From assembly GCA_005791575.1 (NCBI GenBank), contig SXWA01000009.1:1-43238 (forward strand): a stretch of DNA of 43,238 nucleotides. The letters are read 5' to 3'. The notes under the pieces were generated by a model, which had not been told where the DNA came from, searched no databases, and saw only the letters and a list, made by a program, of their open reading frames with translations. This DNA is from Planctomycetaceae bacterium. Lineage in GTDB: Bacteria > Planctomycetota > Planctomycetia > Pirellulales > UBA1268. The position numbers and the translations under genes were made by a program. Positions within the stretch are counted from its first letter, which is position 1; each line of letters starts with the position of its first letter. Below are positions 34,967-38,287 of the stretch, one piece after another.

Positions 34967-37900
34967 TCAGCCGATCGTCACCGTCCGTTGACCGGAGGGC
35001 TGGCTGTCGCCGGCGGCGTTCCTGGCGATGACTCGGAAGGCGTAGTTGGCCCCCCGCACCAGGCCCGTCACCGAGCGCGTGCGCCCGGTCGAGATCCCGT
35101 CGTCGAACGTGCTCCAGACGGCGCTCGAGAGCCGGCGGAACTGGATCACGTAGTCGGTGATCGCCGCGCCCCCGGTGCTCGCCGGCAGTGTCCAGGAGAG
35201 GGTCGCCTGAGCGGCGCCGGCCGTGATCGACACCCACTGCGGCGGGCTCGGCGGGGCGAGGATCGTCGCGGCGGCGTTCGCCGAGGGGAGGCCGTCGGCC
35301 ACGGCGCTGCGCGCCACCACGCGGAACAGGTAGTTCGCCCCGCCCGCCAGGCCGGTGACGGTGGCGCTGGTGGCGGTCGAGATGCCGTCGGCGAAGGTCG
35401 ACCAGGCGGCCACGCTCGCGCGGCGGAACTGCACGAGATAGTCGGTGATCGGGCTGCCGCCGGTGGCGGCGGGGGCCGTCCAGGCGATCTGTGCCGAACC
35501 GGCGCCGCCGGTCACGCGCAGCGTTGTGGCGGCCCCCGGAGGGCCGAGCACGGTGGCGATCCTGGCTGCCGAAGGCGGGGCATCGCCGACGCGGTTGCGG
35601 GCGATCACCTGGAAGGCGTAGTTGGCGCCACCGGTCAGGCCGGTGACGGTGGTGGCGGTCGCGGCGGAGACGCCGTCGTCGAAGGTCGACCACGCCGCCA
35701 CGCTCACGCGGCGGAACTGGACGACGTCGGCGGTGAGCACCGTGCCGCCGGTGTTGCCCGGCGCCGTCCAGGTCAGCCGCGCCGTTCCGTTGCCGCCGGT
35801 CACCGCCAGGCCGCTGGCCGGCGCCGGCGGAGCCACCGGGATCACCGCGGCCGAGGGCTGCGACCAGGGACCGATCCCGTCGGCGTCGATCGTCGCCACG
35901 CGGAATCGGGAGGGGGTGCCGTTGGTCAGCCCGGTTGCGGTCAGCGCCGGCGTGGTGCCGGCGGTGTCGGGGAGCGACGTCCAGGTGGCGCCGTCGTCGG
36001 CAGTCTGCTCGACCCGCCAGCCGGTCACCGGCAGGCCGGGCGGCGCGGCGGGAGCGGTCCATGTGAGGCTCACCTGCCGATCCCCCGGCGTGCCCGTCAG
36101 GCCGGTGGCCGCCGCGCGGGCGGTGACGGTGAACGTCGCCGTCGCCGTCAGTCCGTTGCCGTCGGTGGCGGTGATCACCACCGCCTCGTTCCCGAGCGGT
36201 GCCGGCGGCACGAGCGACCAGGTCCACGTGCCACCCGGTTCGCGGGTCACCGTGCCGAGCGCTGCCGAGAGGGTGACCGTCTGCCCGGCGTCGGGATGGC
36301 CCCAGGTGCCGGTGGCGGTGATCGTGGTGCCGACCGCCCCGCTGACGGCGCTCGTGCCGGCGGCGACCGTGGGGGGGGAGGCGGGCGGGGCGTCGTTGTC
36401 GGCGATGAACACGATCTCGGGAAGGACGTAGGCCTCGGCATAGCCGGCGTCGGAAGTGGCGATCTTGTGGTTCACGTAGGAGCGGTGTGGTCCCTCGACG
36501 AGCGCGTCGTCCACCGCACCGACGCGCACCTGCTGCGGCACGTTCCAGTTGGCGGCGGTGAAGATCAGCGAACCGGAGCCATCGGCGGCGTTCACGGCCG
36601 TCAGCTGGCTGGTGACCGGCTCGAGGGTGATCGCGACGTCCTGCCCCGGCTGCCGCATGAGGACCAGGGAATAGGTGTCGGTCGCGCCCCCCTCGCCGAT
36701 GTCGGTCTGGCCGTCGCTGGGGAGGATCATCACCGCCGGATAATCGTTGTCGATGATGCTGACGATCACGCGCGGCATCCCCACGCCGTCGTAGGCCGGG
36801 TCGGCGCTGTGCGGCACGTGGCGCACCGTCGAGCGGTGGAGGCTCTGCTCGGTGGCATCGTCGACGGCACGCACGACCACCGTCTGCGGGATGTTCCAGT
36901 CGTCCGGCGTGAAGCGCAGGCTGGTGCCCTGCGGATCGGCGGCAGGGAAGGCACGCAGCTTTGCCGCCGGTGCGACGAGATCGACGACCACGTCGTCCGT
37001 GGGCCGCTCGCGGAGGACGATCGTGTAGGAGTCCTCGTAGCCCGACTCGCTCACGAGCGTCGCCCCACCCGGCTCCACGATCACGGCGCCGGCACCGGTC
37101 GGGTTCTGCACCGCGTCGAGGTCGGGGTTGATGTCGAAATGCATCGCGCCCCGGCCGTTCTCCTCCCAGCCGCGGAAGTCGAGGTGGGCCTGGCGCAGAT
37201 ACCCCGCCTCACCCCCGGAAAAGACACCTTCGATCCAGCCGCTGGTCATGTTGTCGAAGCCGAACACGCCGTCGATCCCCGGGGCGATGTCGGCCACCAG
37301 CCACAGGAGGTTGGTCCACACCAGATCGACACCCTGCTCGGTGGGCACGTGGACCGAGTCGATCATGAACACCGGCGCGTCGCGCGAGCCCCCCACGCCG
37401 CCGACCGTCTCGGTGCGCGTGTAGCCGATGTCGTCGGAGTCGAGGGTGCCGTCGCCGTTGGAATCGAGCCCGAGCGACATCGCGATCGCGGTCGAGACGA
37501 TCGTCACCTGGGCCCCGGTGTCGAACATGAAGTTGCCGCCGACGACGGCGCTGCCGTGGTGGACCTCGGCCGTGAAGAAGGGGATGTCGGCCCAGACGGG
37601 TGGGAACTCCCCCTCGATGACATGGCCGTCGGGGGAGAAGTTCACCCGGTCGTCGATGTTCACCGTGTAACGGGGGCCGGTGGGCGCGGGCACCTCCATG
37701 GCGAACTCTGTCGCCATGAGGTAGTTGCCCTCGTTGAACGAGAGCCACGGCGTGAAATCGAGGGTCGTCACCCGCTCCGTCATCGCCGGCATCCCCACGA
37801 TGCCGAACGGACCGAACATGCTCACGTCGCGCGTGGCGTCGGAGATCACCCGGGTGTCGGCGAGCGATTGGCGCTCGCCGCTGGTGCCGGCGAAGTCGAA

Positions 37901-38287
37901 CTGGTAGGGGGCGGAGATGTCGAACAGCTGCGTGCCGCCGATGCCGAGCTCCTCGAACACCCCTTCGGTCTGGTAGGGGGGTGGCGACTCGTTCATGTCG
38001 TCGACACCGGTCTTGAAGACGAGGATCGTGTTGGCGCCGGTGTCGAGGAGCCAGCTGTTGAAGATGTCGGGGCCGATCGACTGCCCGGCGGCATTGCCGA
38101 ACTCGACGGTCACGCGCGGCTGGTCGAGGGCGACGTTGTCGCTGGGGCCGAGATCGATGAATGGGCGTGGGCCCGCGGCCGCGAGGGCGTGGCGCACCTC
38201 GAGCCGTTCGGGGCCGATGGCGCGGCCCCGGCCGGGATGCGTGCCGGTCGCTCGTCGGCTGGGCCATCGTCGCCGTCGGGTCGCCAT
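34967..38287 (-). CDS. large exported protein: two-DTG aspartic-protease-like domain, Calx-beta-like repeats, Ig-like domain and four FN3 repeats
   Basis: FNSWLLDTGANTILVF and GNFMFDTGAQVTIVST; N-terminal RLEVRHALAA; repeated ...TDTYSLVL...VIFIADND blocks; FN3 repeats VQFRR.SVAAWSTF.DG...GANY.F.V.AR. Confidence 0.85.
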   Translation of the reverse strand: MATRRRRWPSRRATGTHPGRGRAIGPERLEVRHALAAAGPRPFIDLGPSDNVALDQPRVTVEFGNAAGQSIGPDIFNSWLLDTGANTILVFKTGVDDMNESPPPYQTEGVFEELGIGGTQLFDISAPYQFDFAGTSGERQSLADTRVISDATRDVSMFGPFGIVGMPAMTERVTTLDFTPWLSFNEGNYLMATEFAMEVPAPTGPRYTVNIDDRVNFSPDGHVIEGEFPPVWADIPFFTAEVHHGSAVVGGNFMFDTGAQVTIVSTAIAMSLGLDSNGDGTLDSDDIGYTRTETVGGVGGSRDAPVFMIDSVHVPTEQGVDLVWTNLLWLVADIAPGIDGVFGFDNMTSGWIEGVFSGGEAGYLRQAHLDFRGWEENGRGAMHFDINPDLDAVQNPTGAGAVIVEPGGATLVSESGYEDSYTIVLRERPTDDVVVDLVAPAAKLRAFPAADPQGTSLRFTPDDWNIPQTVVVRAVDDATEQSLHRSTVRHVPHSADPAYDGVGMPRVIVSIIDNDYPAVMILPSDGQTDIGEGGATDTYSLVLMRQPGQDVAITLEPVTSQLTAVNAADGSGSLIFTAANWNVPQQVRVGAVDDALVEGPHRSYVNHKIATSDAGYAEAYVLPEIVFIADNDAPPASPPTVAAGTSAVSGAVGTTITATGTWGHPDAGQTVTLSAALGTVTREPGGTWTWSLVPPAPLGNEAVVITATDGNGLTATATFTVTARAAATGLTGTPGDRQVSLTWTAPAAPPGLPVTGWRVEQTADDGATWTSLPDTAGTTPALTATGLTNGTPSRFRVATIDADGIGPWSQPSAAVIPVAPPAPASGLAVTGGNGTARLTWTAPGNTGGTVLTADVVQFRRVSVAAWSTFDDGVSAATATTVTGLTGGANYAFQVIARNRVGDAPPSAARIATVLGPPGAATTLRVTGGAGSAQIAWTAPAATGGSPITDYLVQFRRASVAAWSTFADGISTATSATVTGLAGGANYLFRVVARSAVADGLPSANAAATILAPPSPPQWVSITAGAAQATLSWTLPASTGGAAITDYVIQFRRLSSAVWSTFDDGISTGRTRSVTGLVRGANYAFRVIARNAAGDSQPSGQRTVTIG

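Follow-up and report, generated by a model that had tools for sequence, protein, structure and literature searches.

The ∼340 residues that follow the export motif of a planctomycete protein probably form a single-chain, two-lobed aspartic endopeptidase of clan AA, which would have arisen by duplication and fusion of a bacterial retropepsin-like unit, and which, judging from its sequence and predicted fold, would be exported and held by repeats. Retropepsins have one lobe per chain and are active as homodimers, the retroviral enzyme being made of two identical chains; this bacterium appears to possess a one-chain version of the enzyme that retroviruses assemble from two. The gene lies in the window, namely the whole stretch of 43,238 nucleotides that was analyzed, and its features are the following:

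34967 to 38287, minus strand: whole protease gene, supported by homologues and encoding a predicted-exported protein of 1106 amino acids, with the two-lobed aspartic protease domain N-terminal and the repeats C-terminal
38177 to 38212, minus strand: LEPR-XLL-like N-terminal export motif PERLEVRHALAA (residues 26-37), read from the sequence; relatives have LEPR or LERR at the same place
37655 to 38164, minus strand: protease lobe 1 (residues 42-211), from the AlphaFold2 model and the profile match of lobe 1 to lobe 2 (E 9.6e-7)
38036 to 38044, minus strand: lobe 1 DTG in LLDTGANT, with the predicted catalytic Asp82, invariant in 43 homologues
37934 to 37945, minus strand: lobe 1 flap tip GIGG (residues 115-118), with two invariant Gly, a β-hairpin in the model
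37793 to 37804, minus strand: lobe 1 hydrophobic-hydrophobic-Gly motif GIVG (residues 162-165), second Gly invariant
37145 to 37654, minus strand: protease lobe 2 (residues 212-381), from PF13650 Asp_protease_2 above cut-off and the AlphaFold2 model
37514 to 37522, minus strand: lobe 2 DTG in MFDTGAQV, with the predicted catalytic Asp256; Asp and Gly invariant and Thr nearly so in 43 homologues
37388 to 37399, minus strand: lobe 2 flap tip GVGG (residues 297-300), with two invariant Gly, a β-hairpin in the model
37259 to 37270, minus strand: lobe 2 hydrophobic-hydrophobic-Gly motif GVFG (residues 340-343), second Gly invariant
36392 to 37087, minus strand: tandem Calx-beta-like β-sandwich pair (residues 401-632), from the predicted fold, directly after the protease in LEPR-type homologues
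36122 to 36397, minus strand: Big_9 bacterial Ig-like domain (residues 631-722; PF17963, E 1.9e-5)
34979 to 36118, minus strand: four fibronectin type III domains (about residues 724-1103; PF00041, E 2.8e-42, four stretches)

The reading frame, its two DTGA motifs and their coordinates stand as the original prediction gave them: the codon of D82 is at 38042-38044, that of D256 at 37520-37522, and 174 residues separate the two aspartates. An open frame on the plus strand (window 34808-38422, 1204 aa) is longer than the protease frame and antisense to it; it was rejected as a real gene and is regarded as a high-GC shadow frame, all of the homology being on the minus strand.

Could the two motifs be a coincidence? 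An alignment of 43 full-length domains (a 365-residue domain, with identities down to 29%) contains 17 invariant columns; in domain numbering, D47, T48, G49, G80, G83, and G130 are invariant in lobe 1, and D221, G223, A224, G262, G265, and G308 in lobe 2. Both lobes present the same elements in the same order: the DTG, a Gly-xx-Gly flap tip 33-44 residues further on, and a hydrophobic-hydrophobic-Gly motif 83-87 residues on. The last of these had been predicted to follow each DTGA, and it is indeed there, with its second Gly invariant. Alignment and model together give each lobe a Gly-tipped flap hairpin, and a nearly conserved Tyr comes just after that of lobe 1. Both motifs occur in essentially every two-lobed homologue found, mostly at a spacing of 165-212 residues, and their conservation in the 43 homologues rules out a chance pair.

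The same conservation bears on whether the site is alive. A catalytically dead fold, whose lobes bind a peptide or a surface ligand while the repeats provide the anchor, has precedents, because activity can be lost in aspartic-protease folds, for example in some A1 homologues (PMC2761423). Yet catalytic Asp, Gly, and flap Gly that are invariant in 43 diverse homologues would be unexpected for a retired site, which makes this explanation unlikely.

As for the fold, AlphaFold2, given an input alignment of only 43 rows, produced one confident two-lobed domain (pLDDT 92.5, pTM 0.90), in which the flap tips sit between hairpin strands (E72-80/E83-90 and E254-262/E265-279). When this model was compared with the PDB by Foldseek, the top matches were the man-made tethered or covalent-dimer HIV-1 proteases (E 7.7e-10, TMq 0.33-0.39); single HIV-1 protease chains gave TMq 0.19-0.20 with the same normalization. 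Pepsin-family structures came next (cathepsin D, plasmepsins, chymosin, and renin; TMq 0.42-0.53), and other matches were 9iy9 of Bacteroides fragilis (TMq 0.45) and mycobacterial PE_PGRS16, 4ehc (TMq 0.40). The rmsd values, 6-12 Å, are high, presumably on account of lobes that exceed those of HIV protease in size. The doubling of TMq in one rigid superposition indicates that the two lobes have the arrangement of the HIV-1 protease dimer, and with this arrangement the two DTG loops would come face to face, a geometry that we infer from the TM-score argument. The original prediction had proposed a single-chain two-lobed aspartic-protease fold, and it had named DTG loops that do not face each other, or a non-protease fold, as the contrary outcomes; what was obtained is a confident model whose two lobes fit tethered HIV-1 protease dimers simultaneously and which also superposes on cathepsin D, chymosin, and renin.

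Each lobe holds a complete retropepsin motif set, and one could imagine them as separate retropepsin domains in series, each partnered by a second chain so as to build two intermolecular active sites. This arrangement is very improbable: the model is a confident single domain (pTM 0.90) in which no linker separates the lobes, one superposition places both of them on the tethered dimers, and every lineage keeps the two lobes together.

Where does a two-lobed enzyme of this kind belong? Lobe 2 matches Asp_protease_2 (PF13650) with 33.3 bits against a cut-off of 24.3; lobe 1 alone gives no Pfam match above cut-off, and its relatives match PF13650 weakly (E 0.02-0.06). At E<=1, all 43 homologues match PF13650 and PF13975, and 40 of the 43 match PF00077. 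The sequence matches are to Asp_protease_2, gag-asp_proteas, RVP, and Ddi1, the last also being reached by a profile search of the PDB (E 1.8e-5), in which none of the 12 matches at E<=10 was an A1 pepsin chain. PF00026 matched neither the window protein nor the homologue domains; its count in the order is 0 of 147 genomes, although control genomes gave no match either, so that this zero does not prove absence. Pepsin has a single flap, on the N-lobe, with the catalytic Tyr. Here, alignment and model place the retropepsin set (DTGA, Gly-rich flap hairpin, and hydrophobic-hydrophobic-Gly) in each lobe, and the one retropepsin feature that departs from the pattern is the homodimer with one lobe per chain, since in the model two lobes are packed as one unit.

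A true pepsin homologue of family A1, of the shewasin type and either acquired from eukaryotes or ancestral, would account for one chain with two lobes, for the 174-residue spacing, and for the fold matches to cathepsin D, renin, and chymosin (TMq 0.42-0.53). However, A1 motifs have the form D[ST]G[ST], and A1 lobes lack visible sequence similarity beyond the motifs (PMC2761423), whereas the two motifs in this chain are both DTGA, there are two flaps, and the lobes are similar in sequence. Membership in A1 was rejected, given that PF00026 is unmatched and that the PDB profile matches include Ddi1 but no A1 chain; such an origin is quite improbable. The pepsin-like, shewasin-type label of the original prediction has to be given up on these grounds, together with the retropepsin-like family matches. 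We read the protein as bilobal-pepsin-like in having both Asp in one chain, yet of the retropepsin type by sequence and by its two flaps: DTGA twice, the two flaps, the lobe homology, the retropepsin-family matches, and never PF00026 point to a natural single-chain retropepsin.

The homology of the lobes is visible in their profiles, whose alignment (E 9.6e-7) brings the two DTGA motifs, the two flaps, and the two hydrophobic-hydrophobic-Gly motifs into register; the score is 45, compared with at most 26 in 40 column-permuted controls and 18 in a reversed control. A tree of 62 lobes, from proteins of several planctomycete families and two architectures, puts all 28 N-lobes on one side of a branch (99/89) and gathers all 28 C-lobes in another group (97/83). 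The six rows in which just one motif is intact join the C-lobe side; three of them are clear one-lobe proteins, and in the other three the second motif is degenerate or missing. Most simply, a single duplication-fusion would have preceded the split of these planctomycete lineages, a reading that the tree, with 123 columns, some long branches, and no outside root, supports but does not prove. The broader proposal, that natural single-chain retropepsins extend across Planctomycetota and stem from one ancient duplication-fusion of a retropepsin unit, independent of A1 pepsins and with flaps and lobe homology retained, is slightly favored.

With regard to export and anchoring, the original prediction of an exported protease fused to repeats is supported by the LEPR-like N-terminus, by relatives with dockerin and PEP-CTERM, and by the repeat domains themselves. 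The NCBIfam LEPR-XLL model (NF012209) does not match the window protein, and relatives score 15.2 and 17.1 bits for a cut-off of 17. Homologues come in two designs: one has LEPR/LERR N-termini and long repeat tails, and the other begins like a signal peptide and ends in a dockerin and a PEP-CTERM. These two designs suggest that the protease is an exported module joined to different anchors. In LEPR-type homologues the 232-residue stretch that follows the protease is conserved, and it is modeled as two β-sandwiches (pLDDT 90.5, pTM 0.59). Fold comparison matches the pair to NCX1/CALX CBD12 (E about 1e-8), among other β-sandwiches; the Calx-beta-like repeats that had been proposed thus agree with the fold but have no Pfam match, and the label is supported, not proven. 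Pfam on the whole protein returned Asp_protease_2 (lobe 2, above cut-off), Big_9, and FN3 in four stretches, so that the FN3 repeats were correctly foreseen.

How would such an enzyme work? Each lobe would contribute a catalytic Asp (D82 and D256, respectively), a flap with a Gly tip, and a psi-loop Gly. At a pseudo-twofold axis the DTG loops of the two lobes would meet and activate one water between them; a peptide would then be threaded under the two flaps and cleaved in the manner of HIV protease, with no need to dimerize. Export would proceed through the planctomycete LEPR-type N-terminus, and the Calx-beta-like and FN3 repeats would hold the protein at the surface or in a matrix. Substrates would most likely be surface or extracellular proteins, possibly the protein itself, a speculation that draws on the analogy with PecA. 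As for pH, an Ala after DTG is tied to activity at neutral pH in renin, HIV protease, and bacterial A1 enzymes (PMC2761423). Since both lobes have DTGA, the predicted protease is probably active near neutral pH, and the acid optimum, or acidic proteolysis, implied by a pepsin-like label is doubtful.

Several known systems invite comparison. The engineered tethered or covalent-dimer HIV-1 protease (2o40, 3kt2, 1hvc, 4eq0), the best fold match, likewise has two retropepsin lobes per chain, DTGA twice, and two Gly-rich flaps; it is man-made and has 99 residues per lobe, whereas the planctomycete protein has about 170 per lobe, is natural and predicted to be exported, and its lobes have clearly diverged. 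The two nearest bacterial precedents are PecA/PE_PGRS16 and dimeric RloA (PMC6819658, PMC12239564). PecA is a two-motif surface protease, inactive as the D293G mutant (PMC6819658). Its C-terminal domain (4ehc, TMq 0.40) is bacterial, has two motifs per chain, and is fused to a repeat protein; the motifs are DTG at 293 and DSG at 470, spaced by 177, where the planctomycete protein has DTGA twice. PecA also has a PE domain and type VII secretion, whereas the window protein has no PE Pfam match, and PecA gave no sequence match to the planctomycete profile in the PDB search. RloA/RimB, APRc, and Lpg0085 (PMC12239564, PMC4140852) share the retropepsin-like fold, the central DTG, and flaps over the site, and some are exported, but they are one-lobe proteins (RloA is a homodimer), unlike the planctomycete chain with both lobes plus repeats. 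Shewasins (PMC2761423, PMC4814920) are bacterial, with two lobes in one chain, yet they belong to PF00026, which does not match the window protein, and lack a signal peptide, as bacterial A1 enzymes do (PMC2761423). Finally, 9iy9, a putative endopeptidase of B. fragilis, matches by fold over 361 columns, and its FIFDTGAGTS aligns with the lobe-2 DTGA, the sequence match being weak (E 0.05). A search of the open literature found nothing on bacterial two-lobed Asp_protease_2 enzymes, planctomycete aspartic proteases, or 9iy9.

These comparisons lead to an evolutionary question. The route from a one-lobed ancestor to two-lobed pepsin has been described as an unsettled “chicken and egg” problem (PMC2761423), and a 2024 survey of four acid-protease families placed both lobes in one chain only in the pepsin-like family (PMC11313796). 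A natural single-chain retropepsin, if true, would show, in a living organism, the duplication that has long been proposed as a step in pepsin's origin; a bacterial family with visibly retropepsin lobes, both flaps kept, would represent a second, or intermediate, solution to that step. Such a family would let the cost of lost homodimer symmetry be tested directly, and would offer exported bacterial aspartic proteases measurable with HIV-protease inhibitors and pepstatin.

Homologues were searched up to the phylum Planctomycetota. The domain was matched in 16 of 59 genomes among relatives of the source genome and in nine further named planctomycete loci, and a profile search extended this to 94 of 297 genomes at the level of the order and to 26 of 392 in a sample of the phylum. 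The full two-lobed form is present in about 40 of the 297 order genomes (a count of match rows), and many of the remaining matches belong to a related class, also two-lobed, whose motifs are spaced more widely. A second exported planctomycete class with two DTGA motifs was noted (L126, L127, L129, L130, L110, L062, L064, L111, and L098), with a spacing of about 205-260 residues, up to about 376 in L129; its lobes group in the tree with the N- and C-lobes of the window family, and several members have dockerin-like repeats and a PEP-CTERM-like tail. Within the same order, L117, L119, and L120 are retropepsin-like proteins in which a long, apparently helical region at the N-terminus accompanies a single lobe; they are usable as a one-lobe comparison, and one genome (G048) carries both single-lobe and two-lobed forms. 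In L124, L125, and L128 one DTG is intact, the second motif being degenerate or missing (for example FTIDTGCTG in L125, FLIATGAPT in L128), which suggests, from sequence, secondary loss of one catalytic side. Close copies of the protease gene (78-79% identity in the protease domain) occur in L021 (CALQRA010000033.1), L022, and L024, which are MAGs labeled Candidatus Kuenenia stuttgartiensis; these bins are probably mislabeled.

Plasmid-borne relatives were looked for, and none was found. A viral origin was also considered and rejected: among viral proteins, the model is matched by proteases of one lobe, by Pol polyproteins, and by a covalent-dimer-like entry of 203 aa, and there is no sign of a viral gene. 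No neighboring gene is conserved across families; a rhodanese upstream and an AP-endonuclease-like TIM barrel downstream are kept within the genus only, and gene context was for this reason discarded as a clue to the substrate. In the window itself, a gene for a sigma-70-like factor overlaps one for a Ser/Thr protein kinase with a weak TPR match (39454-42640, plus strand), divergent from the protease gene, and a PhoPQ_related protein (PF10142, E 3e-124) is encoded at 31688-33943 on the minus strand.
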